Below are positions 36,579 through 61,585 of a stretch of 64,000 nucleotides of DNA, piece after piece; within the stretch, counting starts at the first letter, position 1; every line of letters begins with the position of its first letter. Origin of the DNA: a virus. The notes below the pieces were generated by a model. That model was not told the origin of the DNA. It searched no databases and worked only from the letters and a program-made list of their open reading frames with translations. Location: positions 1 to 64,000 of the IMG/VR virus record IMGVR_UViG_3300036770_007495; one strand, given 5' to 3'. The translations under genes were made by a program, and so were the position numbers.

Positions 36579-37715
36579 ATGGATGTTGTTGTATTAAATG
36601 AAATGAGCCGCACAGGAGAAATCATCAAAATGTGGCAAAGCACTGGTGCATGGGACCGCCTCAAAGAGCCCAAGCGTCAAGCAATTTTGGCATCACTCAA
36701 AAAAGTGATGCAAGCCACCAACAACAACCACAACATTGTCATGTGGATGGCACGTTGTGTGCAGAGAGGATTGCTGTTTGCCACCAACAAGACCACCAAG
36801 GTGAAGCAAATGCTCAATGATGAAAATCCTGCCAACAGAGTTTACAGCGATTTCAACTTCTTTGTGGGCAATGAAGCAGGTGCATTTGCTCAAATGTATC
36901 AAGACATTTTGCAAACAGCCAAAGAGCTGCAAAATGATCCAGTGTTTGTGGAGGTTCCTGACATCAGAAATGGTGAACAGCAAATGAATGCTGATGGAAC
37001 CCCCAAAATGAGACGTGAAAAGGTGGACTTGATCAAGTTGCTCAACAATGTTCAGTACACCAAAGATGTCAAGACAATGCAAGGCAGCAGGCAAATTGAT
37101 CGTTCCACATCAGATGTGTATCATGACATCAACAATGTGATGAAAAGCATTGGCGATGCTACAAAATTGCCCAGAGGAGAGCGCATTGTAGACATGAGCA
37201 AAGATGAACACTGGACATATGTGAGTGCAGGCAAATGCAAGATTGAAGGATCCATGATGGGCCATTGCGGCAATGCCACTCCCAAGCCAGGTGATGCCAT
37301 TGTTTCCTTGCGCATCAAATCATCTGGAATGTTTTTTGAACCAGTGGCAACATTCATCTACAACAAAAACAGCAATGCATTTGGTGAAATGAAAGGCCGC
37401 CACAATCAGAAGCCATCTGATTATCATGAACAAATTGTTGCATTGCTGTCTGCTCCAATGTATAATACATCAGAAGGTGAATTCAAGTTGCAATTGCTGC
37501 AAGGTGGTGGTTATGCTCCTGCCAGAAACTTTGCACTCAATGACTTGTCTGAACCATTGTTCAAGCAATTGTGTGATGCAAATGGTGAATTGATTAAAAA
37601 TCAAATGAAAAATGCAAACAAGGTGAGTCAGGAACAAAAACTTGATGAGCAACATCTCAAATGGGCAAATGAAGTTCTAGATGGTGGCACCATTAAATAC
37701 ATGCAACATCAATGA
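36579..37715 (+). CDS. putative internal virion protein, PcfJ-like core
   Basis: 378 residues. N-terminus M-D-V-V-V-L-N-E-M fits a prohead-protease site (cut after Glu8). The C-terminal half has S-M-M-G-H-C-G-N, I-V-S-L-R, A-T-F-I-Y-N-K-N-S-N-A-F-G-E-M-K-G-R-H-N-Q-K-P, a pattern like PcfJ-type proteins and partly shared with the large proteins at 51391 and 54615. Start chosen at 36579 because TAAATA lies 5 nt upstream; 36558 is the alternative. Role unknown. Confidence 0.62.
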   Translation: MDVVVLNEMSRTGEIIKMWQSTGAWDRLKEPKRQAILASLKKVMQATNNNHNIVMWMARCVQRGLLFATNKTTKVKQMLNDENPANRVYSDFNFFVGNEAGAFAQMYQDILQTAKELQNDPVFVEVPDIRNGEQQMNADGTPKMRREKVDLIKLLNNVQYTKDVKTMQGSRQIDRSTSDVYHDINNVMKSIGDATKLPRGERIVDMSKDEHWTYVSAGKCKIEGSMMGHCGNATPKPGDAIVSLRIKSSGMFFEPVATFIYNKNSNAFGEMKGRHNQKPSDYHEQIVALLSAPMYNTSEGEFKLQLLQGGGYAPARNFALNDLSEPLFKQLCDANGELIKNQMKNANKVSQEQKLDEQHLKWANEVLDGGTIKYMQHQ

Positions 37716-37972
37716 AAACAAGTGACTTACAACAAATGATGCAGCAATATCAATTGATTGCAGAAAACAATGGCGAGCAGCAAGATGGTTTGAATCTTGA
37801 AGCAAGATATGATGAGATTACTGAAAGAGTAAATGAAGCATATGGCCAACTAGCTGCAGCAATTGAGCAAATGCGTCAATTTCTTGCATATGCAGAAAAC
37901 TTTGACTTTGAAATAGATTTTGTTGCCTGGGCTGAAAACATGGAGGATGCATGCAGAGATTTGTTGAGATGA
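37712..37972 (+). CDS. small putative internal head protein
   Basis: 86 residues, N-terminus reaching Q-Y-Q-L-I-A-E-N (predicted cleavage after Glu18), then a helical Gln/Glu-rich body. ATGA overlap with the gene before and ATGA with the one after. Confidence 0.58.
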   Translation: MKTSDLQQMMQQYQLIAENNGEQQDGLNLEARYDEITERVNEAYGQLAAAIEQMRQFLAYAENFDFEIDFVAWAENMEDACRDLLR

Positions 37973-38220
37973 ATGATGCAAAACACATTTACAAATTGTA
38001 TGCAGAGAATGCTGAACAAGCATCTCCCATTCAGCAAACTTATGACAAATTCATGGATTTGCACATGGATTTGATGAATGCACATGATGAAATGAAGCAA
38101 TTCATGGAGTCTGATGAATTCAAATTTGCCATCAACAATGATTGGATGGGCTTGGAAGATGAAGATGCTGAAATGATTCCAAGTGACTTTCAATCTTACA
38201 AACACAGTTTGTTTGGCTAA
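37969..38220 (+). CDS. small putative internal head protein
   Basis: 83 residues, M-N-D-A-K-H-I-Y-K-L-Y-A-E-N start (cut predicted after Glu13), acidic and Met-rich helical body. Coupled to the previous gene. Confidence 0.58.
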   Translation: MNDAKHIYKLYAENAEQASPIQQTYDKFMDLHMDLMNAHDEMKQFMESDEFKFAINNDWMGLEDEDAEMIPSDFQSYKHSLFG

Positions 38221-38224
38221 TTTC

Positions 38225-38683
38225 ATGGATTCCATTGACATCAACAACATTCAATGGTTGGTGGCAGAAAATGCCATCAAACAAAATGATGATGAGCAAG
38301 GTGTGGAACAACCTTCTCCCATTGCAGGTGCAAGAGCATAGAAAGATTCACAAGGGCGATACCATCGCATCGGAGGACCTGCTTTTGTTGCATCTGATGG
38401 TTCACAGCAGTGGATTGTTCATGGTGTGACGCACAGAGAAGATGGACCTGCTTTGATATATGATGATGGTTCAATATGGTACTTGAATGGACAACGCCAT
38501 CGCATCAATGGACCTGCTGTACAACAGAAAAATGGTGAACAACACTGGTACATCAAGGGCAATAGATACAGCAACATCAATGCATGGGCCAAGGCAGCAT
38601 TGGAATTTGAAGGCAAGGAACCTACTCATGAAATGATTGAGCAAAAGGTTCAGCAAGTGATGCAGCAAGATCTTTTTGATTAA
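38225..38683 (+). CDS. WY-x-NG/HRxxGPA repeat protein with in-frame amber codon
   Basis: The frame starts M-D-S-I-D-I-N-N-I-Q-W-L-V-A-E-N, meets TAG at 38339-38341 (codon 39), and continues open for 114 codons with Y-H-R-I-G-G-P-A, T-H-R-E-D-G-P-A-L and I-W-Y-L-N-G-Q-R-H, ending V-M-Q-Q-D-L-F-D. The part after the TAG matches the next gene along its whole length, so the amber codon interrupts a real protein. Readthrough, suppression or a recent nonsense mutation are possible; a GTG at 38426 could give a shorter product. Confidence 0.65.
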
Positions 38684-38686
38684 ATA
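38681..38686 (+). promoter_or_regulatory. late-type promoter
   Basis: TAAATA, 5 nt before the ATG at 38692, overlapping the stop of the previous gene. Confidence 0.5.
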
Positions 38687-38691
38687 CAAAG

Positions 38692-39144
38692 ATGAATGAT
38701 GATGTCAACATCTTTGAATTGTATAAAGAGAATACTTCAAAAACTGCTGATGGTGGCAAGGTTCGTGCCATAGTTGATGAACATGGCAATAAACGATGGT
38801 ATGATGAGTATAATAGAATACACCGCGAAGATGGACCTGCTGTGGAATATGCATGTGGCGAAAAATACTGGATGAAACATGGCAAACTGCATCGCATTGG
38901 TGCACCAGCCATTGAATATGCTGATGGCAGCACTGAGTGGTTTTATAATGGTAGAATACATCGTGTTGATGGACCTGCTGGTGAGTATAGTGATGGCAGC
39001 AAATCATGGTATGTTAGCGGTATAATTTATACAGACATCAACAAATGGGCTGCAGCAGCGTTAAAATATGAAGGCAAAGAGCCCACAAAAGAGATGATTG
39101 AGCAAAAGATTCAAAGTGTGATGCAACAAGATCTTTTCAGTTGA
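38692..39144 (+). CDS. WY-x-NG/HRxxGPA repeat protein, second copy
   Basis: 150 residues. N-terminus M-N-D-D-V-N-I-F-E-L-Y-K-E-N resembles the late-protein leader. The body has four repeats of about 20 residues of the form I-H-R-x-D-G-P-A-x-E-Y-x-D-G-S-x-x-W-Y, as found in many phage and giant-virus repeat proteins (MORN-like). Ends E-M-I-E-Q-K-I-Q-S-V-M-Q-Q-D-L-F. Likely a virion or surface-binding module. Confidence 0.7.
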   Translation: MNDDVNIFELYKENTSKTADGGKVRAIVDEHGNKRWYDEYNRIHREDGPAVEYACGEKYWMKHGKLHRIGAPAIEYADGSTEWFYNGRIHRVDGPAGEYSDGSKSWYVSGIIYTDINKWAAAALKYEGKEPTKEMIEQKIQSVMQQDLFS

Positions 39145-39178
39145 TTGTGTTGCAAAAGCATGCACATTGCATGCACAC

Positions 39179-39478
39179 ATGGATGCAAAAGATTTGATGC
39201 AACTGTCAACATTGTATGATGATGTGCACTTGCGAGAGCCTCAAGTGCATCGTGATGAAAATGGCAATGTAGTGCACAAATTGTGGGGCAAACGTCATTG
39301 CACCAATGGTGCTGCTGTGCAATGGAATGATGGTGCAAAAGAGTTCTGGGTTAATGGCCGTAGATTTCGTGATGTTGATGCATGGGCACGAGCAGCATTG
39401 GCATGGGAATTCAAATGCATAAATCAAGAGAGCATCAATGAAAAGATTCAATGTGCGATGCAATGTGATCTGTTTTGA
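39179..39478 (+). CDS. WY-x-NG/HRxxGPA repeat protein, third short copy
   Basis: 99 residues, with G-K-R-H-C-T-N-G-A-A-V-Q-W-N-D-G-A-K-E-F-W-V-N-G-R split by one repeat and ending C-A-M-Q-C-D-L-F, matching the C-termini of the two genes before it. It has fewer repeats and a different N-terminus. Confidence 0.62.
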   Translation: MDAKDLMQLSTLYDDVHLREPQVHRDENGNVVHKLWGKRHCTNGAAVQWNDGAKEFWVNGRRFRDVDAWARAALAWEFKCINQESINEKIQCAMQCDLF

Positions 39479-40014
39479 TGATGCACAATGATGTGGTGGA
39501 GATGTAGGATGAAAATGATGTAAAAACATGTGAAAATCATGAAAAAGCAGCAGAATATGCATTGGCAAGCAAGTGCTGATTGTTGATGAATGTGCATGCA
39601 TAATGCATTGAGAATCAATGAAGTATGTTATGCATTGAATGTGAACGAGTTACATTGAAATGTTGAAATGTACGCCTCAATGGGGGTGCGAGTGTAGAAG
39701 GGGTTGGCAATGTGGGTATGAGGGTGAATGAAGGTGAATGGTTTGGAAATGAGTTGTGTGTTGCGCGCTCCTTACTCGGCACTTGCTGCCTTTGCGCACA
39801 CAATTTAGACATCGCTTACTTCAGTGCGAACATCAGATCACCACATCGAGAATATCCCCTTGTGGATCTGAGATGCGCACATCAAAACGAGAAGCGCATT
39901 TGCTCAATGCATGTCCCCGCGCCGCCATGCATGCGTTTCCAATGCCATTCAACAATTTTAAAAAACATTCATTTTGTGCATTGCAATACACGTTGTAGAG
40001 TCCACATTGCATAT
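39479..40014. other. 536-bp intergenic region
   Basis: I see no convincing gene. The left half is rich in ATG, TGA and TGCAT words; the right half is more GC-balanced. Open frames here have untypical codon use. It may hold regulatory sequence before the gene at 40015. Confidence 0.5.
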
Positions 40015-40239
40015 ATGACAAAAAACAAACGACTCAATATCAATCGCAACTGGTACTCCAACAAGAATGTGCGCCCCAAGCTGTTCAATGTGACGCTGGC
40101 TCGCGATTCTGATGGCACTTACCGCATTGTGGAAGGTGTGGTGGAAGCAGTGGTGAACCAGCATGAAGCTCGCATTCAGCGCGTGGATGCTCGTGACCTT
40201 GCTCGCGATCTCAATCGCGGCCGAGTCAAGGCTCTGTAA
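40015..40239 (+). CDS. small basic protein
   Basis: 74 residues, Arg/Asn/Lys-rich at the start (T-K-N-K-R-L-N-I-N-R-N-W-Y) and R-D-L-A-R-D-L-N-R-G-R near the end. Probably nucleic-acid binding. Ends before a strong terminator. Confidence 0.62.
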   Translation: MTKNKRLNINRNWYSNKNVRPKLFNVTLARDSDGTYRIVEGVVEAVVNQHEARIQRVDARDLARDLNRGRVKAL

Positions 40240-40275
40240 TGCACAAGCACAGAGCATAAAGACTGAGCATACAGT

Positions 40276-40322
40276 GAACGGAACTCATGGCTAATGTGCT
40301 GTGAGTTCCGTTCTCATTTTTA
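40276..40322 (+). terminator. rho-independent terminator
   Basis: GAACGGAACTCA pairs with TGAGTTCCGTTC around a short loop, followed by TCATTTTTAT. The symmetry may let it stop transcription from both sides. Confidence 0.8.
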
Positions 40323-40486
40323 TAGCATTTATAAGATAAAATGGCGCTTTTTGCAATCAACTGTATAATTGTGAGAGTGCTAGCGCGGCACGGGTTCACT
40401 TAGAATTTGTCGGCTGCTGAAGCATTGCTCCTATTTGGATGCTCCCATCGATGCATGCACATTACCCCTCTTTTGCATTTGTGCCA

Positions 40487-40921
40487 CTATTCTTTGAGAC
40501 GTTGGTACCAATAAACTTTGGCATTGCGCCACATGTTGCAAAAGGGAATGCGGGTTCCGTGATTGTTGACATCATACAGTCGGCCATTGCAAATGATGAT
40601 GATGTGTTGCGGCACCATCACAATGGCCCATTCATTGCGCTTCAATCGATGGCTCAATTCAAGCACCGTTGTTTTGCGTTGAGGATAGATGCAGCGAGTT
40701 TTGCACAGCCATTTGCGCAGTTCAAATCGAATCTCACTATCCCACATCATTTGAGTCTCACGCTGGGCGCGGCATGGTTTCCATTTGTTGACTTCAATGC
40801 GACGGCGCATCACACGCAAAGTGATTTGTTCATCTGGCTCACCGGTGAGCATGCTGATGACGCGGCTGGCACAGCTATACATGTGAAAAGGGGCTTGGCA
40901 GGTGGTGAGATGCAGTTTCAT
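40487..40921 (-). CDS. isolated minus-strand gene, unknown protein
   Basis: 144 residues, Arg/Trp/Cys-rich, ending with V-M-V-P-Q-H-I-I-I-I-C-N-G-R-L-Y-D-V-N-N-H-G, which resembles small phage proteins with a G/Q-H-x-x-x-V-x-x-G strand pattern. A canonical early promoter on the minus strand lies 9 nt upstream, which supports this frame over the long plus-strand frame. It is the only minus-strand gene between 7.5 and 51 kb. Confidence 0.65.
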   Translation of the reverse strand: MKLHLTTCQAPFHMYSCASRVISMLTGEPDEQITLRVMRRRIEVNKWKPCRAQRETQMMWDSEIRFELRKWLCKTRCIYPQRKTTVLELSHRLKRNEWAIVMVPQHIIIICNGRLYDVNNHGTRIPFCNMWRNAKVYWYQRLKE

Positions 40922-40930
40922 TGCAACGCC

Positions 40931-40958
40931 ATTATAATGATCAATGCAAATGCATCAA
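40931..40958 (-). promoter_or_regulatory. early-type promoter, minus strand
   Basis: TTGATG, 16-nt spacer, TATAAT on the minus strand, 9 nt before the ATG at 40921. Confidence 0.65.
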
Positions 40959-41118
40959 CTAAAATGTGCACAAATGCATCTTGGTTCCCTTTGAAACAAA
41001 AAATTCAAAAAAAGCATGGTGCAGAGTTGCACTAATTCAAAATGCATATACAATGAGGGTGTAAGGCAATTACGCCTTGTTAATCAAACTCAACAAACAC
41101 ACAAAAAGGACCAAACAT

Positions 41119-41529
41119 ATGCCCAACGAAAAGAATACCAAGTTCACCGCCGCCATGACCTTCAACACCGACAAGGTGGTGATTCAGGACCTGCGCGACA
41201 AGTGCAACCTCGGCGAGAAGGAGATGATGCGCGTCATCCTCAGCGTCGTCAACAACCATGAAGCGGAACTCATCGAGGCCGCCGCCAAGTTCATCGCTGA
41301 TGAGAAGGCTGGCATCGAGGCCGCCAAGCAGGCCAAGAAGGCGGAACGCGAGGCTGAGAAGCTCGAAGCCAAGCAGAAGCGCGAGGCTGAGCGTCTGGCC
41401 AAGAAGGCAGAACGCGAGCAGGAGAAGGCGCAGAAGGCTGCTGCCAAGGCCGCTGCCAAGGCGGAGAAGGAAGCTGCCAAGGCTGCGGAACTGGCTGCCA
41501 AGGCCAATGCTGAACCGGTGGAAGCCTAA
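41119..41529 (+). CDS. Ala/Lys/Glu-rich helical protein
   Basis: 136 residues. Residues 1-55 form a small domain (F-N-T-D-K-V-V-I-Q-D-L-R-D-K-C); the rest is a continuous A-K-A-E-x-E-A helix, alternating charge, probably a coiled coil or single alpha-helix, histone-H1-like in composition. The gene is clearly more GC-rich than its surroundings and is followed by a strong terminator, which suggests high expression. Confidence 0.72.
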   Translation: MPNEKNTKFTAAMTFNTDKVVIQDLRDKCNLGEKEMMRVILSVVNNHEAELIEAAAKFIADEKAGIEAAKQAKKAEREAEKLEAKQKREAERLAKKAEREQEKAQKAAAKAAAKAEKEAAKAAELAAKANAEPVEA

Positions 41530-41552
41530 TCCACAACCAACACCAACCATTG

Positions 41553-41583
41553 AAGGCTCCAAGGCAACTTGGAGCTTTCTTTG
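41553..41583 (+). terminator. rho-independent terminator
   Basis: GGCTCCAAG-GCAA-CTTGGAGC followed by TTTCTTT, directly after the Ala/Lys/Glu-rich gene. Confidence 0.85.
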
Positions 41584-41592
41584 TGTTTCTAT

Positions 41593-41621
41593 TTGCATTC
41601 AAGTGCTTTTGCATGTATATT
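41593..41621 (+). promoter_or_regulatory. early-type promoter
   Basis: TTGCAT, 17-nt spacer, TATATT, 5 nt to the ATG at 41627. Confidence 0.58.
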
Positions 41622-41626
41622 GTGTT

Positions 41627-42109: not shown

Positions 42110-42110
42110 G

Positions 42111-42139: not shown

Positions 42140-42145
42140 ACACAC

Positions 42146-50759: not shown

Positions 50760-51386
50760 ATGTCTTATCTTAACAAAGATGCACAAAGCATTTCATTGTT
50801 GTATGAACAGCTTGCACAAGCCCCAGCTCCTGTTGCTGCACCTGTTGCTGCACCTCCATCCATGGTGCAACAGCAACAACCGGCTGCTCCGCAGCAACAA
50901 CAACCAGTTGCCAATGCTGCCAAAGTACCAGCATTTGCTTTGCGTACTTTTGGAGACATCAAAGCCATCATCAACAGAGTCAAAAACAAACAGAAAGTTG
51001 CCGGCGTTGCTGCTGCAGGTGCAGATGCTGCCATTGATGCTGCATTGAATATGATTCCTGGGCTTGGTGCAGCCAAGTCTGCATTTGCATTTTTTAAAGC
51101 AGCCACCTCTCGCCCTGATACTCAAAAGACCAACACCTTCATCGATCAATTGGATGTGGATGATTCCATGAGCAAAATTGTGGATGATACTGTGGAGAAT
51201 GAATTTTTGCAAAACATTGAATCCATCATCAGCAAATATCCTGACAAAGAACCATTGCCAGCCAATTGGAACATGACCAATGAACTGGTGAAGTTTTTGC
51301 GCAACAAGTACAAAAACTCACCTGCAGTGCTGCAGCATCTCACAGACATTACCGCTCGCATGCAGCCTGCAGCACCCATCAGATGA
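50760..51386 (+). CDS. putative internal virion protein with Pro/Ala/Gln linker
   Basis: 208 residues. N-terminal leader M-S-Y-L-N-K-D-A-Q-S-I-S-L-L-Y-E-Q (cut predicted after Glu16), then a low-complexity linker (P-V-A-A-P-V-A-A-P, Q-Q-Q-Q-P), an Ala/Gly-rich hydrophobic segment around residues 85-120 (A-A-G-A-D-A-A-I-D-A-A-L-N-M-I-P-G-L-G-A) that could insert into membrane, and a helical C-terminus. Fits an ejected internal protein; no family name. Confidence 0.66.
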   Translation: MSYLNKDAQSISLLYEQLAQAPAPVAAPVAAPPSMVQQQQPAAPQQQQPVANAAKVPAFALRTFGDIKAIINRVKNKQKVAGVAAAGADAAIDAALNMIPGLGAAKSAFAFFKAATSRPDTQKTNTFIDQLDVDDSMSKIVDDTVENEFLQNIESIISKYPDKEPLPANWNMTNELVKFLRNKYKNSPAVLQHLTDITARMQPAAPIR

Positions 51387-51390: not shown

Positions 51391-53799
51391 TCACTCATTA
51401 TGGTGAATGTGATACAATGCATCTGTTGTTGACTGCTGCACACCAGTTGTTGCATTTATCAAGAATGACTGACCTGCACCTTGCGCATTGAATTCTTTGC
51501 GGCAATAGTAGATGGTTTCATCATCATCATTTTTGCCTTCAATGAAAAAGCTAAATGCCACACGAGTCAGCAATGGCTGAATAAAAATTCTGCTCCATGC
51601 AACATCCCATGCTTGTGCTATCTGTGTCAAGTTGTTCAATGTGGGCGTGGACAATACAGCAGATGTATCTGCAAAATTGCCAATGAACACTGCATTGTTG
51701 TTGATGATGGTTTTTCTGCCCACTTTGATTTCATTCTGCACTCCATGCTCTTGAATGTATGCATGATATTCTTGTGGATCCACTTCATCATTTCTGCCCA
51801 AGGCTTTGAGATGCAAATAATGTTTGGCAGCATCGCTCAATTCAGATGCTTTCATCTTTTTGCGATCTGATACATTGAGGCGCTTTTGTCTCAAATTTTC
51901 CACCACATCTGCCGCATCAAAGATTTGTTGCTTGCGCACACCAGCCCAATGAATTCTGATGTATTCTGGCACTGCATCATCATCCTGCATGCGTTTAAAA
52001 ACTGGCACATGTGGACTAAAACCAAATACTTTGCTCATATGTTTGTATTCAGCCAATGCTTTACCATTTGCATCAAATGCATACATGCTTTGTTTGAATG
52101 TTTCATCATCATACAAAGTTACCAAGTATGTTTGCGGCACTTGCATGAATGGCTTCAACATCAAAGGTGCTTTGTCAGGACGTTGCAGCAATTGTTTGAA
52201 CAACTGTGACTGTTGCAATTTTTTGAGTGCAGCATCAAAAGATTGTTTTGGCAGACGCAAATCTCCTGCATTTGCTGCCATGCGTTTCATGAATTTTTTG
52301 AAATGAGCATTTTTAATTTCTACATCATCAATGATGCAACGAGCAAACAAATTTGGTGCATATTCTGTCATTGCATCTTCCGACAATGCTTTAAACAATT
52401 GCGGCAATTTTTTATTCAATTCAACAGCATCATATGTTCCAAGCAATTGCACCATCTTTTGCATCTCATCAATGTTGGTGCCAAAATGCATGTTTGCATT
52501 GTGCCCAATTGCAAATTTAATGCTGCAGTTTTTTAATTCATCACCATTGAAGTTAAAATTCAAAAACACAGCTTTGTATTTGAACTGCAACTTAAATTCT
52601 TGCAACATCATGGTTTGTGCATTATACATGGCAATGAGCTGCCCCACGTTCAGTGCTTGATCCAATGGCATTGACACCACATGATCAATGGCCTGTCGCA
52701 CTTGTTCAGACAATCCATCCACAAGGTTTCTGGCCACTTCACCCCAATACAAGTCAAATTCATACACCTCTATACCATCAGCTGTTCTAATTGTGTTCTT
52801 GCCTTGTTCTTGATAATTCTCAGCAGCTCTTTTGGCATATCTTGCGGCCTCTTGTGGCAGATGCTGTTGCAACACCCGCACTGGGTCCATGTACGGCATA
52901 TTGAACTGCGGAGGATAGGCAAAAAAGTGATACACCGTTCTTGGTGCAGCAACATCTGCATATGTCTTTTTAAGATCACGCGGCAAATCCAACCAACTGT
53001 CCATGTAAATTGTTTTGCCCATGGCAATGTATGCTACTTTTTTCTCGTAGCTCAGCTCATCAAAAGTTTCAGCATCTGCATGCGCCAAATCTGCTTGCAT
53101 TTTTTCTTTGGCACTAAATTCATGATACTCAAACAAATGCTGCAGTCCTTGCAACTTGGGCTGCATCTTTACAACTTGCTGCCAATTCATTTGCTTTTGA
53201 AAATCATTGGTGGCATTGGTAACAATGTAATCATCATTTTGTACACCTGCTTGAATCACAAGCAAGTGGCGGGTATTGCTCTGCGGCAATGATTCATCAT
53301 ACACAAAATAGAACGAACGTTTTTTGAATCTGTATGAATCATACATGTTGCCACCCATGGGTCTTGACACACAAAATGTGTATGATTTGCCAAACTGATG
53401 ATGCCCCAGATGAATGCATGCTTGCTTGCTGGGTGCATCATAAATCTTCAATTGATTTTCATCATAAATGAGTCGTGATTCTGGTGGTGGTTCATCCACA
53501 TGCTCTCTCTTTGGTCGTGTTTCTGGTGCAGGCAATTGATCCACTGTGGTCTCCAATTGACTCCATGAATAGTTGAAAATGTCTGTGGGCTGACTAATTT
53601 TGTAAATGCGGCGCACAAAATTGATGATGCGCGGTGAATCTTTGATGGCATTGAAGCGATTGATGTACCACTCCATGACTTCATCAGTCAATGCAGCATC
53701 TTGTTTTTTGAATTTTTGTTTGAGCTGTTCAACGACGTTGGGCGCATATGCCTCAGCATACATCATGTACATTTCATGAAAGAGAGATGATTTCATCAT
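51391..53799 (-). CDS. large putative internal virion protein, 802 aa
   Basis: N-terminus reaches M-Y-M-M-Y-A-E-A (cut predicted after Glu16). Residues about 115-175 contain C-I-H-L-G-H-H-Q-F-G-K-S-Y-T-F-C-V-S-R and F-Y-F-V-Y-D-E, shared in part with the protein at 54615. The remaining 600 residues are soluble, mixed alpha/beta and Gln-rich. Late promoter 5 nt upstream on the minus strand. It faces the previous gene tail to tail with 4 nt between. No enzymatic motif recognised. Confidence 0.72.
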   Translation of the reverse strand: MMKSSLFHEMYMMYAEAYAPNVVEQLKQKFKKQDAALTDEVMEWYINRFNAIKDSPRIINFVRRIYKISQPTDIFNYSWSQLETTVDQLPAPETRPKREHVDEPPPESRLIYDENQLKIYDAPSKQACIHLGHHQFGKSYTFCVSRPMGGNMYDSYRFKKRSFYFVYDESLPQSNTRHLLVIQAGVQNDDYIVTNATNDFQKQMNWQQVVKMQPKLQGLQHLFEYHEFSAKEKMQADLAHADAETFDELSYEKKVAYIAMGKTIYMDSWLDLPRDLKKTYADVAAPRTVYHFFAYPPQFNMPYMDPVRVLQQHLPQEAARYAKRAAENYQEQGKNTIRTADGIEVYEFDLYWGEVARNLVDGLSEQVRQAIDHVVSMPLDQALNVGQLIAMYNAQTMMLQEFKLQFKYKAVFLNFNFNGDELKNCSIKFAIGHNANMHFGTNIDEMQKMVQLLGTYDAVELNKKLPQLFKALSEDAMTEYAPNLFARCIIDDVEIKNAHFKKFMKRMAANAGDLRLPKQSFDAALKKLQQSQLFKQLLQRPDKAPLMLKPFMQVPQTYLVTLYDDETFKQSMYAFDANGKALAEYKHMSKVFGFSPHVPVFKRMQDDDAVPEYIRIHWAGVRKQQIFDAADVVENLRQKRLNVSDRKKMKASELSDAAKHYLHLKALGRNDEVDPQEYHAYIQEHGVQNEIKVGRKTIINNNAVFIGNFADTSAVLSTPTLNNLTQIAQAWDVAWSRIFIQPLLTRVAFSFFIEGKNDDDETIYYCRKEFNAQGAGQSFLINATTGVQQSTTDALYHIHHNE

Positions 53800-53811: not shown

Positions 53812-54618
53812 TTACACTTCATACTCTGGCAGCTCTTTGCCACAAACTCGGCGCCAAAATGCACCCAAAGAATACATGTTTCGTTGCTCTGCTGGTGCAA
53901 CACCTTCACGTGGCCAAGAAATTCTTCTGAAAATTTTGAGTGCTATTTCTCTTGGAGCATTGCATATGATTTCATCAATCCATGCACATGGCTTGTGCAT
54001 GGTTCTAACATAGTATGTGTAATATGCATTCAGCAATTCTATTGATGCATCATCAATGCTTTCAATTGCGGGCATAGTTTTTTTGATCAGAGGTTCAAAC
54101 TGGCCATCAAATTCTTTTAAACTTGACAAATATTTGTTGATGGAGGCGCTGGCAGCATCCCACTTATCAATCTTTTTAAATGCTTCAACGTTGTTGCTCT
54201 GCAACAATTGCAAAACAAGATGTTCAATGATGACTGGTTTTTTGTTGAAGCGTTTGCAATACTGCAAGTACTTTTCAACTGTTCCACTGTAGCCCCACCA
54301 GCTGATGAACTTGTTGTCAGCGCCTTCCTTCAAGCTATCAAGAGCTTTTTGAAAAACATCTTGAGCAGCAACATCAATGTTTTTGTATACTCTGAGTGCA
54401 TAGTTGCATGCATATTCCACTGTTGTGGTTGACATGTATGTTGATTCTGGCAGAGGTTCATCAGACAGCAATGCCAAAATGTCTGATGAATATCTATAAA
54501 ATATCCTGTTGACATTGTCCAAATTATCAACCATGGCCTGTTTGACATCATCAGGAATGCTTGCAGCTTCATTCAGCACTTGTTGCTGATAAATTTGTGT
54601 GAGGTAATGTGAGATCAT
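53812..54618 (-). CDS. putative internal virion protein, 268 aa
   Basis: N-terminus M-I-S-H-Y-L-T-Q-I-Y-Q-Q-Q-V-L-N-E-A is a near-ideal prohead-protease leader (cut after Glu17). The rest is helical with W-W-G-Y-S-G-T-V-E-K-Y in the middle. ATGA overlap with the upstream gene. Function unknown. Confidence 0.66.
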   Translation of the reverse strand: MISHYLTQIYQQQVLNEAASIPDDVKQAMVDNLDNVNRIFYRYSSDILALLSDEPLPESTYMSTTTVEYACNYALRVYKNIDVAAQDVFQKALDSLKEGADNKFISWWGYSGTVEKYLQYCKRFNKKPVIIEHLVLQLLQSNNVEAFKKIDKWDAASASINKYLSSLKEFDGQFEPLIKKTMPAIESIDDASIELLNAYYTYYVRTMHKPCAWIDEIICNAPREIALKIFRRISWPREGVAPAEQRNMYSLGAFWRRVCGKELPEYEV

Positions 54619-55778
54619 TGTGCGTCGTAGAATAAAATGGATAAGATGAGATTGCCATTGTCTGCTTCATCGCGCAAATGCAAATGCGGCAATGCAGTTA
54701 TTTTGGCCAACTTCAGGCGATCAGCAGGCTGCATGATGCTCCACAAAGATGCATCTACATTTCTGATGCGCTTGAACAATTCATTGCGCAGTGCACCATT
54801 GAGGTGTGGATATGTCTCCAATTCAAAAGGAATGCTGCCATTGGTTTTGATGTACAGCTCTTTTTGTTCTTTTGTTGCAGCATTGAATGCTTCTGCACTT
54901 TGCTTCAAATCATTGAGTGTGCGGTGCACAAAAATCTCTCGTTCTGAAAATGAAGATGCAGCAATGCCTTTGAAGTTGCCGCTGCCATTGAACACAGGAG
55001 CAAACTCTGGAAACTGCTCAAGCACTTGCTGCTGAGTTACTGATTCAGTGCCATGTCCTTGTGCACCATTGTCTGCCCAAGTCCATTTGAGACCCCCATC
55101 TTTGTCAATGTGCAGAACAATGAGATGCTCTGGTTGCTCCCATTTGTCTCCCTGTTTGGCATTGGATACAATGTCACCATTAAGGCGCTTCTTCAAACGA
55201 ATGAACCACGTTCCTACTGCAACATCTCCCGGCTTGGTGTATGGGCCAACCCTGCCCTTGTAGTTGTAAAACATGTTGGATGAACCTCTGCGAGAAATGC
55301 AGAAGGTGTAATCTTTGCCAAGCTCACATGCTTCTGCTGGGGTTTTGGCTTCATAAATGGCAATGTAGTCGTTCTCAAAAACTGGATCCACATGATCCAA
55401 TGTTTCATCATCAGCAACAGATTTCTTTGCCTCTTGACGAGCATCCACTTCATTTTCAAATTGCTGAAATGTTGCAAATGCATTGATTTGTGGGTTGATG
55501 CGACCACGTGTGCGCAAATTAACAAATGATGTATAGTAGTGTTGCAATTGCTGCATTGCTTCTTGTTGCGGTGCATCAATCTCTTTGTAGAATTTTGCAA
55601 GCTGCAATGCATCAGATTTGGATGGCGTCTGATCCATTTGAATGATTGATCGTGCAACATCTTCAGTGATGTCACGGGTTTGCATCAACTGCTGCACAGA
55701 AATAGCCTCAGCAAGAACGATGCGCTTGCTGTATACATTTGCAAGCTCATTCATTGCATTGTTACAAGTGAATATCAT
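54615..55778 (-). CDS. putative internal virion protein with C-I-S-R domain
   Basis: About 387 residues. The leader region ends R-I-V-L-A-E-A-I-S (protease-type site). A central domain has A-C-E-L-G-K-D-Y-T-F-C-I-S-R-R-G-S-S-N-M-F, H-L-I-V-L-H-I-D-K-D-G-G-L and W-A-D-N-G-A-Q-G-H-G, PcfJ-like and partly shared with the 802-residue protein. Start chosen at 55778 from the late promoter; 55754 would give a leader of usual length. Confidence 0.66.
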   Translation of the reverse strand: MIFTCNNAMNELANVYSKRIVLAEAISVQQLMQTRDITEDVARSIIQMDQTPSKSDALQLAKFYKEIDAPQQEAMQQLQHYYTSFVNLRTRGRINPQINAFATFQQFENEVDARQEAKKSVADDETLDHVDPVFENDYIAIYEAKTPAEACELGKDYTFCISRRGSSNMFYNYKGRVGPYTKPGDVAVGTWFIRLKKRLNGDIVSNAKQGDKWEQPEHLIVLHIDKDGGLKWTWADNGAQGHGTESVTQQQVLEQFPEFAPVFNGSGNFKGIAASSFSEREIFVHRTLNDLKQSAEAFNAATKEQKELYIKTNGSIPFELETYPHLNGALRNELFKRIRNVDASLWSIMQPADRLKLAKITALPHLHLRDEADNGNLILSILFYDAQ

Positions 55779-55788
55779 ATGATGCATT

Positions 55789-55827: not shown

Positions 55828-55835
55828 AAAATCAT

Positions 55836-56444
55836 ATGATGCATTTTGAAACAATGTTGCTTGCACTAGAGGCAAGATTGCAACACAATGAACAAACCAA
55901 AGGATTGGATGCATTCATGAGCCAATTGAATGATGCATTTCCAGACAAGTGGCAATCATTTGCTGCATTGAGAAACATCATTCTTCAATCCAAGTGTCCA
56001 GAGATTCGATTTGAAAGCATTCGTGCACTAGGAATATCCATGGGCGACAAATGCATCATCAGCAACAGTGTATTGCGATCTTCTTTTGCACATGCTGTGT
56101 ATGTGATTTTGCATGAGATTGCTCATCAGATGCAATATACAAAATATGGCGAGGATTTTGCTGCGGCCATTTTTATGCATGATATACCAGATGCACAAAT
56201 GGTTCAAATGCTCAGAAAAATTGAATTGACTGCTGATCGTTATGCCATTGCCAAAGGCAAGCAGGTTCTTCGCAATGCAGGTGCAACAGATGTACCAGTG
56301 ACGCGCAGCATGTACAAATCAATGAGCGATGCATCTTTGCTCAGTCACATTCACAATGTGCGTGCAAATGCAAAGAAGCACAATCTCAACACCGTCATGG
56401 ACATCAATGAATGGATTTACAACTCCATCAAAAACGCTTTGTAA
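55836..56444 (+). CDS. zincin-like metallopeptidase with virion leader
   Basis: 202 residues. Leader M-M-H-F-E-T-M-L-L-A-L-E-A (cut predicted after Glu12). The catalytic motif V-I-L-H-E-I-A-H-Q-M (HExxH) is followed by I-E-L-T-A-D-R-Y-A, the E-x-x-A-D third-ligand motif of ImmA/IrrE-like zincins. If packaged in the head it could be injected and cleave host regulators. Its 3' end overlaps the convergent gene at 56428. Confidence 0.74.
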   Translation: MMHFETMLLALEARLQHNEQTKGLDAFMSQLNDAFPDKWQSFAALRNIILQSKCPEIRFESIRALGISMGDKCIISNSVLRSSFAHAVYVILHEIAHQMQYTKYGEDFAAAIFMHDIPDAQMVQMLRKIELTADRYAIAKGKQVLRNAGATDVPVTRSMYKSMSDASLLSHIHNVRANAKKHNLNTVMDINEWIYNSIKNAL

Positions 56445-58146
56445 TTTTATATATTCTATTACTACTATCTTTATACACTTGTAGTGTAGATAAATTGATG
56501 TTTATTCCTTTGTCTCTCAACCTGTTTATTGCTGTATAGAGTGTTTGCACGTGATATGGACTGTTTGAAAAATCGCCCACATCACCTTCTTTTGCATTTA
56601 CAAGAAAATTAGTTAGCGACTTCCATGCAACTTTTAATTGATCATCGGTCTTTCTTGTGATTGATGACACAATGTAGCTGTTGCTTTTATCACGATTTAT
56701 AGTAAACTTTTTGATAAAATCATTCTCACCAGCAAGCTTCATTGCAATTTTTAAATTTGCCATATTCATTGGGGTACCGCGGCTTGTAATATAATTTGTT
56801 AAATCAATGCTTTCTCCTGGCTTTAAGCTACGGATGCGATCTGTTAGTGTTTTTCTCTCTTCACCTTGTTTCAACTTTCTAATAGAAGTTACAAGTGTTT
56901 TTTCTTTGTTTGCAAATTGTATGTCGTATGAATTGAGGGGCTGCTTCAATCTAAAAATATTAGCCTCAAGAGAGGATCTCTTTGTAGGTGGATTAAACAC
57001 ATAAGCATCTCCACCAGGTTCAAGATTTATAACTATATCGCGAAGTGTGTGCAATTTGCGTCTATTAATTACATGCTCTTGTTGACCGAGTCGCCTAATT
57101 GCTGATATATGCATTTTATCGCTATCAACATATTTAAAATCAAATTGATTGATGCTCGTGCCCAGTCTGCTTGTGAATTGTCGAATAGAACTACGTTTTA
57201 TCGGGGATTTAAAAACATGCCAATCATCTCCCGGCTGTAAATTTGCAATAACGTTATATAGGTTTTGTATATAGGGTGTCTTTTTAAAGATAATGCGCAT
57301 CATCTCCACCGCTTGCGACTTATCACCACCTTTATAGGGGTTGACGTATATTGGCACCAGACCAAGGCCCTTCCCGAAATCATTTGCAATATAATCTGCG
57401 ACATTTGCTGCATAAGCAACGTATTTTTGTCGTTTTCGCATATTTAAACCATAGCTAACTTTAGGTGTGCTGCTATCTTCAGCTGGAGCAAGCTCATTAT
57501 ATGCTGGATTATTGAACACCGCCTCGTCTTTAGGATTAAAAGGTGGTATTATTCGCTCATCTGTTTTATATCCTGTCTTCTGTGTTCTAAAAGCTACTGT
57601 TACAAACAGCAGACCCTCCGCGCTCAAGAGTTTACTTGCAAGGTAAATATCCGTGAGCTTACTTTCATCAAGAACACCAATATAATCAAGGTCAATTACA
57701 TTAACAGATGCATCTTTGATGTTCTTTAATTCATTTGTTTTTATATTTTTTAGAGCTTGCTTGCCGTCAAGAACTCTGCTTATTGTACTTGTAACATACC
57801 TTTTGAATTTTTTACTATATGGCATCCAAACATTTACTTGTTGTTCTTTGATGAGATCAAATGCAGCAGGTAGTACCTCTTGTTTCAAGACATCCAACTT
57901 AAACTCAGCGCCGTATATATCTGTAACAGCAAAATTACGCTCTAAGAGTAATTTTTCAAAAGAAAATATATGCGGAAGTGATAAAATTTTCAAACCACCA
58001 CTATTACTCAATCTATCAAGTGATTGCTTGACACGGCCAACTGATAAATATGTATGCCTGTCATGTATTTTGTTGGCAAACTTATTAAAGCTATATCTTG
58101 TACTAGCCTCTACTGTCAATTTGAAATATTCATCAAACGTAATCAT
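56428..58146 (-). CDS. putative virion protein: methyltransferase-like domain plus tandem repeats
   Basis: 572 residues. Leader M-I-T-F-D-E-Y-F-K-L-T-V-E-A (cut after Glu13). Residues about 45-200 look like a Rossmann methyltransferase (I-L-S-L-P-H-I-F-S-F-E-K, V-I-D-L-D-Y-I-G-V-L, A-E-G-L-L-F-V-T-V-A-F-R). Residues about 300-570 have at least three repeats of about 65 residues of the type L-x-P-G-x-x-x-x-V-F-x-x-P-x-K-R-S-S. The gene is distinctly more AT-rich than its neighbours, suggesting recent transfer. Confidence 0.66.
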   Translation of the reverse strand: MITFDEYFKLTVEASTRYSFNKFANKIHDRHTYLSVGRVKQSLDRLSNSGGLKILSLPHIFSFEKLLLERNFAVTDIYGAEFKLDVLKQEVLPAAFDLIKEQQVNVWMPYSKKFKRYVTSTISRVLDGKQALKNIKTNELKNIKDASVNVIDLDYIGVLDESKLTDIYLASKLLSAEGLLFVTVAFRTQKTGYKTDERIIPPFNPKDEAVFNNPAYNELAPAEDSSTPKVSYGLNMRKRQKYVAYAANVADYIANDFGKGLGLVPIYVNPYKGGDKSQAVEMMRIIFKKTPYIQNLYNVIANLQPGDDWHVFKSPIKRSSIRQFTSRLGTSINQFDFKYVDSDKMHISAIRRLGQQEHVINRRKLHTLRDIVINLEPGGDAYVFNPPTKRSSLEANIFRLKQPLNSYDIQFANKEKTLVTSIRKLKQGEERKTLTDRIRSLKPGESIDLTNYITSRGTPMNMANLKIAMKLAGENDFIKKFTINRDKSNSYIVSSITRKTDDQLKVAWKSLTNFLVNAKEGDVGDFSNSPYHVQTLYTAINRLRDKGININLSTLQVYKDSSNRIYKITKRF

Positions 58147-58151
58147 ATGAT

Positions 58152-58157
58152 TATTTA
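58152..58157 (-). promoter_or_regulatory. late-type promoter
   Basis: TAAATA on the minus strand, 5 nt before the ATG at 58146. Confidence 0.55.
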
Positions 58158-58508
58158 CTGCATTTTGATGATGAGCTCGCCCAGCACTTCAATGAGTCCC
58201 ACTTTCTTCTGAAACTCAATTTGCTGCATTTTTACAGAAGAATTGATGCTTGAATTCAACTCTTTGGTGAGTTGTTTGAGCTGTTTTTTTGCTGCATCAA
58301 CATCAAATTTACCATTTGCGGCCTTTTTGTAATGCGGCAATTTAACATTGAAGTGATGATATGTAAGCATTGCTGCACCACCTTTTTCTTTGGCTGCTTT
58401 GGCAATTTTTTCAGCACCAATGAGTCTTTTGTTTGCAAACTCCTCAAAAGAAGTTGATGATGTTGCTTGTTCATACAAGAGAAATATTTTTTCACTATCG
58501 TGCTGCAT
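58155..58508 (-). CDS. small putative internal head protein
   Basis: 117 residues, leader M-Q-H-D-S-E-K-I-F-L-L-Y-E-Q (cut after Glu13), then L-T-Y-H-H-F-N-V-K-L-P-H-Y-K-K-A and a long C-terminal helix. Late promoter 6 nt upstream. Function unknown. Confidence 0.66.
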   Translation of the reverse strand: MQHDSEKIFLLYEQATSSTSFEEFANKRLIGAEKIAKAAKEKGGAAMLTYHHFNVKLPHYKKAANGKFDVDAAKKQLKQLTKELNSSINSSVKMQQIEFQKKVGLIEVLGELIIKMQ

Positions 58509-58514
58509 ATCATT

Positions 58515-58520
58515 TATTTA
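58515..58520 (-). promoter_or_regulatory. late-type promoter
   Basis: TAAATA on the minus strand, 6 nt before the ATG at 58508. Confidence 0.55.
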
Positions 58521-58531
58521 CTTAAATTCAG

Positions 58532-58567
58532 TTGATTTGCATCTTTATGATGTTATTATTATAAATA
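58532..58567 (+). promoter_or_regulatory. overlapping early- and late-type promoters of the tmRNA
   Basis: TTGATT, 16-nt spacer, TATTAT gives an early-type promoter; TATAAATA at 58560-58567 is a perfect T4-type late box. Either would start transcription about 40 nt before the mature tmRNA. Confidence 0.58.
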
Positions 58568-58612
58568 AACAGCTGATGAATCAGCAAAATTTGATCTTTG
58601 ATATTTATAAAT

Positions 58613-59056
58613 GGGGGCGAACTGGCTTCGACTCAATTGGTTGATTCAGATTCGCATGCAGAGGTAGACTAGCTGGCCTCTATAAAAGCAAGTCAAAAAA
58701 CATAAACGCAGAAGACACTGAAGTCGATGCCCTCTTGGCGCAAGCTGAGTACATCTTCAACAATGCTGACGAATTCCTCGTCAACGAAGTTGAAATGGCA
58801 CTCGCTGCCTAAGCAAAAACAATGTTGGATCCTATTAAAAACATTGAGGCAAGCAATAGGTGGAGCTGAACAATGTATGCTCTTAAATCAAACATTGGGG
58901 TGATGTCAGACTCTTCACTGACATAGGTAGGCTCTAAAACTCAGGTTGATGCGCCATGCAAACCTTTTGCCAATGAAATTGCAAATGCATCCAAGCATGT
59001 AGACGGTTTGATGATGTTGATTGAACACAGGGGTTCGACTCCCCTCGCCTCCACCA
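58613..59056 (+). ncRNA. ssrA: tmRNA (transfer-messenger RNA)
   Basis: The ends fold as an alanyl tRNA-like domain: GGGGGCG pairs with CGCCTCC, T-arm AGGGG-TTCGACT-CCCCT, discriminator A and encoded CCA. Conserved tmRNA words are present (CTGGCTTCGAC, ATGCAGAGG, TGGCCTCTATAAAAGCAAGTC). The resume codon is probably GCA at 58708; the tag frame runs 58708-58809 and ends at TAA, giving about 34 residues that start A-E-D-T-E-V-D and end M-A-L-A-A. This rescues stalled ribosomes and tags the protein for proteolysis. Confidence 0.93.
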
Positions 59057-59062
59057 TAAATA
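59057..59062 (+). promoter_or_regulatory. late-type promoter
   Basis: TAAATA begins directly after the tmRNA CCA end and lies 5 nt before the ATG at 59068. Confidence 0.52.
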
Positions 59063-59067
59063 ACAAG

Positions 59068-60084
59068 ATGATTGCATTTGAAAAATTTTACAATATTCGC
59101 GTCGTAAATGAATCAACAAGACGCAGCTTTTTAAAACAGTTAATGGGTACTGTTGCTGCAGCAATAGGGTCACCAGCTACAGCAACAAAAGCATTGGCTG
59201 CGCAGCCTTCTAAATTTTCTTATGATTTGACTAATGCAATGAGCATTGACTCCATTGCAAATTACATTGTTGACTTCGGAAACGGTAGCAGGCTTTCTGA
59301 GGAAGCACTGCTTAAAAAAGCAAAAAAAATACATGATGAATTTGCTGCAGGTAAAATAAATGCTAAAACTATCAAACAACTGATTGCATATGATAATAGT
59401 TGGATTGATGTTTTACAAACAGTTGAGCGTGAAGCATTAGAAAACTTTATAGAACAGAACCAACAAAAGCTATCACCATACATGGGCGATGAGAACAATG
59501 GGCTGTTCTTGGATGCGTTGCATGGTGTGTTGGACGATTTATCTAACACAGACGCATTGGAGGAGTTGCGACAAGGATTTTTGGCAGGTGACAGCCACGA
59601 TGTTTTTAAATATATCGTACCCGGCGACATAAAAATAAATGGTAAAGTTATCATGACGCAGCAGCAAGCCATTGACAAGGGCATCTTTGAGACAATGAAT
59701 AATGTCATTTCAGCTACTGTTGAGTATGTTAACGAAACTGCTGATTATTTCATGGAAACAAATCTTGATAATAAATCTGTAGATGATGCAGATGAATATG
59801 CGGATGAATATGCAATCGATGATGCTGGTCATCAAGATATTGAGTACTCACCAGCAGATTACAAAGGTAGTTGGGAAAATGATCCTGATTATCAATCATT
59901 GTCCATGGGCGAGAGCATTGTTGCTGAAAAAAGCATTCACGATCCAGTGAGACCCGGCATTCTCAAACGTCAAGTCAAGGGCAAAATGACTTGCAGCAAA
60001 GCCCGCTCACTCAAATCCAAACAAAAGAACAAGGGCAACAACACAGCAAAAGCTGCACAGCGGTATCTAAATTATCACTGCTGA
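59068..60084 (+). CDS. putative internal virion protein with twin-arginine motif
   Basis: 338 residues. Leader M-I-A-F-E-K-F-Y-N-I-R-V-V-N-E-S (cut predicted after Glu15). Directly behind it comes S-T-R-R-S-F-L-K, a perfect Tat consensus, a hydrophobic run (L-M-G-T-V-A-A-A-I-G) and a possible A-x-A signal peptidase site (K-A-L-A-A). The mature part is acidic and ends with a basic Lys/Arg tail and Cys. The start at 59008 would lie inside the tmRNA and is rejected. Confidence 0.68.
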   Translation: MIAFEKFYNIRVVNESTRRSFLKQLMGTVAAAIGSPATATKALAAQPSKFSYDLTNAMSIDSIANYIVDFGNGSRLSEEALLKKAKKIHDEFAAGKINAKTIKQLIAYDNSWIDVLQTVEREALENFIEQNQQKLSPYMGDENNGLFLDALHGVLDDLSNTDALEELRQGFLAGDSHDVFKYIVPGDIKINGKVIMTQQQAIDKGIFETMNNVISATVEYVNETADYFMETNLDNKSVDDADEYADEYAIDDAGHQDIEYSPADYKGSWENDPDYQSLSMGESIVAEKSIHDPVRPGILKRQVKGKMTCSKARSLKSKQKNKGNNTAKAAQRYLNYHC

Positions 60085-60087
60085 ACA

Positions 60088-60093
60088 TAAATA
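60088..60093 (+). promoter_or_regulatory. late-type promoter
   Basis: TAAATA, 5 nt before the ATG at 60099. Confidence 0.55.
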
Positions 60094-60098
60094 AACAT

Positions 60099-60371
60099 AT
60101 GCAATTTGATGATTTGTTTCAAAAAATCTTGGAAGCTCCTGCTACAGCACCAGTGCGAACACCAGCACCTGTAAGAACACCAGCACCAGCCAGACCAACA
60201 CCTGCAAAACCAAGTCGTCCAAGTTGGTTGCCAGATCCAGGCACCAAAACTCGTCCCAAGGCAATGCGTGATGAAGAAAATGAGGATGTTGCAATTGATC
60301 CAAGCATTGAACAACATGATAAAAAGGTTCTTCAAAAGAGACTTGAACGCCGCCGCAACTTTTTAAAATAA
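60099..60371 (+). CDS. small putative internal virion protein, Pro/Ala/Arg/Thr repeats
   Basis: 90 residues: leader M-Q-F-D-D-L-F-Q-K-I-L-E-A (ideal site, cut after Glu12), then P-V-R-T-P-A-P-V-R-T-P-A-P-A-R-P basic low-complexity linker and a charged helical C-terminus. Its stop overlaps the next ATG (TAATG). Confidence 0.64.
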   Translation: MQFDDLFQKILEAPATAPVRTPAPVRTPAPARPTPAKPSRPSWLPDPGTKTRPKAMRDEENEDVAIDPSIEQHDKKVLQKRLERRRNFLK

Positions 60372-61585
60372 TGAATCCCATTGTACAACTCGCCCTGGAA
60401 GCACTCAACACTGGTGATGTGCCCAAGAAATATTTTGATGCATCCAAGCAACAACTTGCAACTGGAGAGCATCCTGTGGAAGAAATTTTACCATCATCTG
60501 GTGAGCAGGATCGATTCATTGAGCAAATCACAAGCGAAGGATACAAGCTGGTGGTCACAAAGCTTGCATCTTATCTCAACATGCCCATTGCAGACATGAT
60601 GCGCAGATATCCAAATGCATATTCATTTTCTGCTGTTGTAATGCAGACATTGACTGAAGTGATGCAGTTGGAAGCTAACAACAAGCAAATGCTTGAGCAA
60701 CTTGCACTTGATGCTGTTTTTAAATTGCCTGAATTTGCACAATTCAAGAAGCTTCATGAAAGAGGCATTCTCAAGCTTGACATCAAACTTGGTCCGCCTG
60801 AACTGGGTAATGCCAAAACCAAAGATGACATTGAAGAGGAAATTGAAGAAGATCAGGAAAACATCATTGAAGAAATTGAACCTCTCATTGAAGACAACAC
60901 TGATGCCAAGCTCAAGAGAGTTCTTCACAATTACATCACACAAGGCAATGCTGTTCACAAGAGCTTTTTGTTCAACATGGTGAATGAAGAATTGGAGACC
61001 ATTGATGAAAAATTGCCGGTCAAATATGGTTTGATCATGTCCATTGTACACATGCTGTATTATGGAACACCTTACATGAGTGGATCAATTCTCAAAAGTC
61101 CTCAAGCTGGGTTGGGAAGTGCAGAAGCAGGTGCAGATGATACCATCATTGTGCGCGGCTTGGTATTTCCTGTGCTTGTGCACGAACTTGTCAAGGGATT
61201 GTTTGAATATCTTGGCAAAGACATCTCACCAGAAGGTGCTGAAGGAGAAACTCTTGAAGATGAATACATGCAACTCATGGCTGGTCCAGAGTTGTACAAA
61301 AAGCTCAATTCAATGATTCCAAACAACAAAATTGAATTGCTGCCCATCATTTATAGACTTCTCATGAAGCGTGATGTTGAAGAAATCAAACAAGTAATTG
61401 CACGTACACCTCAAGGCAGACAAGTCATTGATGAACTTGCAATTGAAGCTCAGCGCTTGGCCGATGAAATGGATCAAGAACCAGAAGATGATTTTGGTGG
61501 TGAAGAAGACTTCGACTTTGGCGGAGAAGATGAAGGTGATGATGGCGAAGGTGCTGATCCATACAACCTCTACAGCGGCTTCTAA
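60371..61585 (+). CDS. putative virion protein with acidic tail, 404 aa
   Basis: Leader M-N-P-I-V-Q-L-A-L-E-A (possible cut after Glu10). Helical body with acidic segments (D-D-I-E-E-E-I-E-E-D-Q-E) and a very acidic Gly/Asp/Glu C-terminus (F-G-G-E-E-D-F-D-F-G-G-E-D-E). Acidic helical proteins are typical of phage head cores. Coupled to the gene before. Function is inferred from context only. Confidence 0.66.
   Translation: MNPIVQLALEALNTGDVPKKYFDASKQQLATGEHPVEEILPSSGEQDRFIEQITSEGYKLVVTKLASYLNMPIADMMRRYPNAYSFSAVVMQTLTEVMQLEANNKQMLEQLALDAVFKLPEFAQFKKLHERGILKLDIKLGPPELGNAKTKDDIEEEIEEDQENIIEEIEPLIEDNTDAKLKRVLHNYITQGNAVHKSFLFNMVNEELETIDEKLPVKYGLIMSIVHMLYYGTPYMSGSILKSPQAGLGSAEAGADDTIIVRGLVFPVLVHELVKGLFEYLGKDISPEGAEGETLEDEYMQLMAGPELYKKLNSMIPNNKIELLPIIYRLLMKRDVEEIKQVIARTPQGRQVIDELAIEAQRLADEMDQEPEDDFGGEEDFDFGGEDEGDDGEGADPYNLYSGF

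Follow-up and report, generated by a model that had tools for sequence, protein, structure and literature searches.

The stretch analysed here (the window) covers positions 1 to 64,000 of a virus record that is 224,703 bases long (IMGVR_UViG_3300036770_007495, here G000). About 13 of its proteins, and about 13 more encoded elsewhere in the record, start with a leader of 8-26 residues that ends in hydrophobic-x-Glu. An initial annotation had described a dozen or more such leaders and likened them to the leaders of phage T4 internal proteins; every leader site it named is present on direct reading of the N-termini, and the full-genome search it proposed revealed both the leader proteins outside the window and a gp21-like protease. 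The latter, a prohead protease of the S77 (gp21) family, is encoded at positions 82,197-82,661 of the record, 18 kb past the window (PF03420, E 6.6e-37; PHROG match to head maturation protease, 4e-61). Aligned with T4 gp21, it keeps the ELNHP and GxSSR motifs and retains the N-terminal LLxE site. Genes were called with one simple coding model on the record, 13 relative records and two further relatives (204 and 217 kb). In a set of 15 relative records, 14 encode an S77 protease. The major capsid protein is a distant relative of T4 gp23, around 33% identical to cyanophage proteins and 70-92% identical to counterparts on many uncultured IMG/VR contigs. Since a gp23-related capsid protein and a gp21-family protease are both present, the record is that of a phage of the T4 superfamily, equipped with the protease on which the leaders would depend.

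In the window, a forward-strand operon opens with a leader protein of 378 residues (36579-37715; MDVVVLNE/MSR, where the slash marks the predicted cleavage site), preceded by a TAAATA element at 36568-36573; its orthologue in the relative G016 reads MHKILLTE/MNRK. The stop of this gene is overlapped by a second leader gene (37712-37972; ...MQQYQLIAE/N; score 8.8 in the held-out model described below), and a third lies at 37969-38220 (MNDAKHIYKLYAE/N; score 6.9). The possible leader peptide at 38225-38341 is weak: MDSIDINNIQWLVAE/N is seen by direct reading and falls below the model threshold. On the same strand, the leader at 38692-39144 (MNDDVNIFELYKE/N; score 7.2; TAAATA 5 nt before the ATG) is attached to a repeat protein of the DUF6745 type (Pfam, E 1.3e-6). 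A 248-residue leader protein encoded on the reverse strand at 6696-7442 (MSSLLLDNTNIYNLYTE/MAFG; TAAATA 7 nt before the ATG) is outside the interval 36579-61585 that contains the others; its G016 orthologue, 66% identical, keeps the leader NIYNLYTE/MAFGIA.

A second group starts with a forward-strand gene for a 208-residue protein with a hydrophobic, Ala/Gly-rich stretch (50760-51386; MSYLNKDAQSISLLYE/Q; score 6.4; TAAATA 9 nt before the ATG). Five leader genes follow on the reverse strand, coding for an 802-residue protein (51391-53799; MMKSSLFHEMYMMYAE/A by reading; TAAATA 5 nt before the ATG), a 268-residue protein (53812-54618; MISHYLTQIYQQQVLNE/A; score 7.0), a protein with an FC[IV]S domain (54615-55778; MIFTCNNAMNELANVYSKRIVLAE/A, ...NELANVYSKRIVLAE/A; TAAATA just upstream; ...NEIANVYGACPVLTE/A in the G016 orthologue), a 572-residue repeat protein (56428-58146; MITFDEYFKLTVE/A; score 8.6; TAAATA 5 nt before the ATG) and a 117-residue protein (58155-58508; MQHDSEKIFLLYE/Q; TAAATA 6 nt before the ATG). 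A transfer-messenger RNA (tmRNA) gene at 58613-59056 on the forward strand (Rfam RF00023, 98 bits) marks this island. It is directly followed by a late-promoter-like TAAATA (59057-59062, forward), 5 nt before the ATG of a leader gene at 59068-60084 (forward; MIAFEKFYNIRVVNE/S), and then by a gene for a 90-residue proline-rich protein (60099-60371, forward; MQFDDLFQKILE/A; score 7.2; TAAATA 5 nt before the ATG), the G016 orthologue of which reads MQFDDLYQKLME/A. The leaders at 36579, 38692, 50760 and 53799 (reverse strand) were absent from the initial list. The open reading frame at 60371-61585 was rejected as a leader protein: the residues past its Glu are equally conserved, and it has no late promoter.

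The leader model was trained on 12 hand-picked leaders, all from outside the window to avoid circularity, and applied to the 108 window genes. At a threshold of 6, eight leaders were observed and 3.0 expected; at 7, there were six, compared with 1.4 expected from internal segments, and all but one fall within 36579-61585. In the island from 50.7 to 61.6 kb, a region picked post hoc, seven of the ten genes score at least 4 (binomial p ~4e-6). The excess recurs outside the record: the 13 relative records contain 68 leaders versus 15-19 expected among 1163 genes without homology to the training genes, and the two further relatives of about 200 kb gave 15 versus 3.0 and 14 versus 4.6 at threshold 7. 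As a positive control, eight of the ten established T4 gp21 substrates (gp67, gp22, gp21, IPIII, IPII, gp68, gp24 and IPI) are among the 23 highest-scoring of the 231 T4 proteins (p 1e-7). Unsupervised motif discovery on the N-termini overfitted and gave no separation from controls. Fourth among the T4 proteins ranks gp61.1 (gene 61.1, L197:18966-19130), which starts MKTFKEFIKE/D, resembles the IPIII leader and may be an overlooked packaged protein.

The leader genes also share a promoter-like element. TAAATA is found within 32 bases before the ATG in seven of 12 window leader genes versus four of 94 other window genes (p 9e-6), and in 11 of 13 leader genes outside the window; it occurs in 0.8% of random 32-base windows. 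Several leader genes without an element of their own directly follow genes that have one. The element resembles the late promoter of T4 and cyanophages (TATAAATA, NATAAATA; PMC2984593). Its distance to the ATG is mostly 5-7 bases, a spacing that recurs in the 13 relatives checked and at dozens of genes in this phage. With such spacing, transcription would begin at or near the ATG, which suggests that the late messages may be leaderless or nearly so.

Across 17 orthologue families, made up of the leader proteins and the protease, with families and sites chosen by us, every family keeps the Glu at P1 and a hydrophobic residue at P3 (17 of 17), whereas P2 and P5 are variable. Examples are the pairs FQKILE/A and YQKLME/A, KRIVLAE/A and ACPVLTE/A, VVVLNE/M and KILLTE/M, YKHFIAE/D and FDRILAE/D, and LFNDLLLE/K and TFNSIISE/K. 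The same grammar is present in the protease itself and in the major capsid protein: of its 65 distinct N-termini, 62 fit the pattern hydrophobic(-x)-E at the predicted cleavage site and the remaining three have LLME. For T4 gp21 the rule is L/I-x-E (PMC9026906); the predicted sites here follow a slightly looser form of it. A protein resembling FMN reductases and encoded at 74073-74840 of the record (L002:11073-11840) has a clear leader, MSFTSLFNDLLLE/K, the pattern of which is kept in relatives. Its Pfam match to FMN_red (E 5e-5) is just under the cut-off and a genome scan for leaderless cellular homologues gave one weak archaeal match only; it is possibly a packaged redox enzyme.

Behind the leaders, the bodies are unrelated, as the initial annotation had stated. 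An all-versus-all comparison within the genome returned only the paralogous pair 51391/54615 (E 2.5e-5) and two weak short matches, and just two of 12 window cargo proteins have homologues in the 13 relatives. The relative G001 encodes eight proteins with a near-identical leader, MNDxxLIWE/xY, and bodies without detectable similarity; all eight genes have a TAAATA promoter. Within the DUF6745-repeat family of 38692, the leader is present on some members and not on others: homologues in G002 have none, and among about 20 clustered paralogues in G016 (181904-203357) some carry MNKDNKNIMMLYE/N and some do not. Two labels from the initial annotation did not hold up. For 'methyltransferase-like', the best Pfam match of 56428-58146 is Methyltransf_35 at E 0.03, below the cut-off, and 'peptidase' found no support in the Pfam scan of the leader proteins, which gave no significant family for the others scanned except the DUF6745 repeat in 38692-39144. 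The motif GKxYTFC[IV]SR...NM marks a domain common to the products of 51391-53799 and 54615-55778. The former, the 802-residue protein, has a relative in the 595-kb uncultured phage genome LR756511; searches of viral contigs for relatives of 51391, 54615 and 60371 returned nothing or one weak match.

Leaders are kept at loci where bodies change. Around the tmRNA gene, the order in the window is 58155 (reverse), tmRNA, 59068 (forward) and 60099 (forward). G016 has the same order, with a 58155 orthologue (90% identity; leader MQHDNEKIFILYE/Q), the tmRNA gene, a leader gene and the 60099 orthologue; the protein in the middle has a similar leader, MITFDKFYMLSE/S, and a C-terminus of 52 residues 90% identical to that of 59068, with a different body in between. 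The place in G016 that matches 56428-58146 holds a different leader protein, MITFEQVYKELLAE/A. In fragment L200, the 58155 orthologue, the tmRNA gene and a 59068-type body are present with an unrelated gene in between. The tmRNA gene is syntenic in G016 and L200 (Rfam scores of 105 and 104 bits). As the bodies are unrelated and turn over fast, some being exchanged while the leader before them and the C-terminal domain behind them stay in place, these loci can be regarded as variable cargo slots, and the locus beside the tmRNA gene looks like one. The 59068 homologue next to the tmRNA gene of L200 is immediately followed by an open reading frame (L200:3476-4186) that starts MYHIVYKTTNTVNGKYYIGVHST and resembles, by eye, GIY-YIG homing endonucleases, which would fit an insertion hotspot. 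The tmRNA tag proposed by ARAGORN, GAEQCMLLNQTLG, looks wrong by eye; an upstream in-frame reading ends ...NEVEMALAA-stop.

The 59068 protein is composed of the leader, a Tat-like (twin-arginine) signal (STRRSFLK), the body, a second LxE-like site (SIVAE/K) and a basic C-terminal HDPVRPG domain. Its last 51 residues (KSIHDPVRPGILKRQ...QRYLNYHC) occur in 30 distinct contexts, directly after hydrophobic-x-E in 21 of them; the leader-and-site unit therefore travels with the module. Often the module is found in small proteins consisting of a leader and the module, such as MITFKEYITE/KKSIHEPVRPG and MSFKQYFEE/KKSIHDPVRPG, and sometimes module and site are internal (LTFEQYFYITE/K in L165, WESFIAE/K in L146). 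In 59068 and similar proteins, two cuts may be made. Phages of the Flavobacterium phage immuto group carry the HDPVRPG domain. The module matches no Pfam family, and its three-helix model (predicted local distance difference test score, pLDDT, 71) has no match in the PDB; the prediction for the whole of 59068 is too poor for use (mean pLDDT 37), and no relative of solved structure was found by sequence. Compared with its L146 homologue (46% overall identity), F4, F7, E15, R18, R19, F21 and K23 are invariant. In both proteins the leader Glu is followed by S/G-T-R-R-x-F-[LI]-K, a hydrophobic stretch and an alanine-rich end, which places the end of the capsid leader two residues ahead of the twin arginines. 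Elsewhere, at 72465-77873 (L002:9465-14873), the record encodes a PSCyt2/PSD1 (DUF1549/DUF1553) protein and two DUF1501 proteins, the latter with N-termini that resemble Tat signals; all three genes lie behind a late TAAATA element. Planctomycetota and Verrucomicrobiota are the phyla in which such families are typically found, a hint at a host of that type.

We regard the leader genes, with good confidence, as a system of the T4 type for capsid targeting and protease cleavage, the cargo of which is enlarged and variable. The cargo system proposed initially is in this respect well supported by the leader, the protease, the late-promoter-like element, the unrelated bodies and the retention of leaders while bodies change; its 'peptidase' and 'methyltransferase-like' labels are not. 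Several observations weigh against this reading. At a threshold of 4, only 14 window leaders were observed versus 9.5-12.3 expected; this excess is small and single weak leaders are therefore not significant alone, those scoring 4-5 being indistinguishable from chance. The 12 training leaders were hand-picked, and the window shows no enrichment of the strict spacing of T4 IPIII (aromatic-x-x-aromatic-hydrophobic-x-E; none observed, about one expected). In G016 alone, the association of leader and promoter is not significant (p 0.11). False positives do occur, as a high-scoring case outside the window, 139618, was rejected as a mis-started amidotransferase-like gene, the relatives of which begin upstream with a catalytic-type MCAI N-terminus.

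The shortness of the motif and the small low-threshold excess might suggest that the hydrophobic-x-Glu N-termini arise by chance, or from the composition of short amphipathic helices at the start of proteins. This is very improbable given the number of leaders in unrelated genes of the relatives, the T4 control, the constancy of P1 and P3, the co-occurrence with the late promoter and the near-identical leaders that eight G001 proteins with unrelated bodies have. A stronger competitor, although still an unlikely one, is that the proteins brought to the prohead core by the leader are components of the core or scaffold, to be degraded or retained in the capsid, and that few or none of them are injected. 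Core proteins and the protease itself do bear the motif, T4 gp22, gp67 and gp68 bear it and are degraded (PMC9026906), and the basic HDPVRPG-domain proteins could be DNA-packing head proteins. Yet the window cargo is variable and often orphan, unlike a structural core, a body is swapped at a fixed locus, and in T4 both Alt and the internal proteins, which have leaders of this type, are injected (PMC3012670, PMC5512222).

For the 59068 protein alone, the N-terminus could instead be a conventional Tat signal peptide, long in its n-region, and not a capsid leader, as the twin-arginine motif, hydrophobic stretch and alanine-rich end in both homologues would allow. We think this rather doubtful: the G016 locus keeps MITFDKFYMLSE/S without the twin arginine and with another body, many phages have plain leaders in front of the C-terminal domain, and F4 and F7 match targeting positions of T4 IPIII (PMC9026906). 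If leader and signal are both real, they might act as a relay, in which prohead cleavage exposes the Tat signal at the new N-terminus and the protein, once packaged and injected, is exported across the inner membrane of the new host; from the two sequences, we put this forward only tentatively.

In the proposed T4-type cargo system, TAAATA promoters would drive, late in infection, the synthesis of many small and large proteins, the first 8-26 residues of which form the hydrophobic and aromatic leader. The leader would dock each protein onto the prohead core, and the S77 protease would cut after the leader Glu, with the core proteins, the major capsid protein and the protease itself as its further substrates. 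The mature cargo would stay inside the head with the DNA and probably be delivered with it to the next host. Packaging and cleavage we infer strongly from the sequences, and injection is plausible by analogy with T4. There, injected IPI inhibits a restriction enzyme of the host, the RNA polymerase of which is modified by Alt (PMC3012670, PMC5512222); by the same analogy, early counter-defence and takeover would be the likeliest roles of the cargo. If the proposed system is real, a tag known mainly from a few T4 proteins would serve as a general, readable address label across a widespread group of aquatic phages that are uncultured, and dozens of orphan phage proteins could be predicted to be virion cargo, with host takeover or counter-defence early in infection as their probable roles. 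They could be listed by a simple rule, late promoter plus hydrophobic-x-Glu leader, and a fixed locus of cargo swapping would be at hand.

Similarities to known systems are partial. The cyanophage structural protein T4-GC0119 (for example from Synechococcus phage S-E7) shares a KxDACYHKxKSxYxVxPSAYASG module with leader protein 86879; the former is a large multi-module protein of 529 residues, while the latter consists of a leader and one module. Phage polyvalent proteins are also predicted to be virion-packaged effectors delivered with the DNA (PMC5512222), but they are defined by multi-domain bodies, whereas the present proteins are defined by their leader and those scanned have no such domains. 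As with the ejection proteins of phiKZ and SPN3US, many head proteins would be cut after Glu by an S77-related protease (PMC5694885, PMC9026906); the propeptides of those phages are often longer than 100 residues and end in S/A-x-E, whereas the leaders here are short and end in L/I/V/Y/F-x-E. Closest are T4 IPI, IPII, IPIII and Alt with gp21, which share the N-terminal leader ending in hydrophobic-x-Glu (10-20 residues in T4) and the S77 protease (PMC3012670, PMC9026906), as well as variable, unrelated bodies behind a conserved leader and the motif on the protease and core proteins; late expression, as in T4, is probable here from the late-promoter-like element. Unlike in T4, leader genes here are at least twice as many as the roughly ten established T4 substrates, the leader is more diverse and the bodies are others; the leader may sit internally before a movable C-terminal domain, and bodies are swapped beside a tmRNA gene. 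The T4 packaging-tag trick thus probably extends to more than two dozen otherwise unrelated proteins of an uncultured phage.

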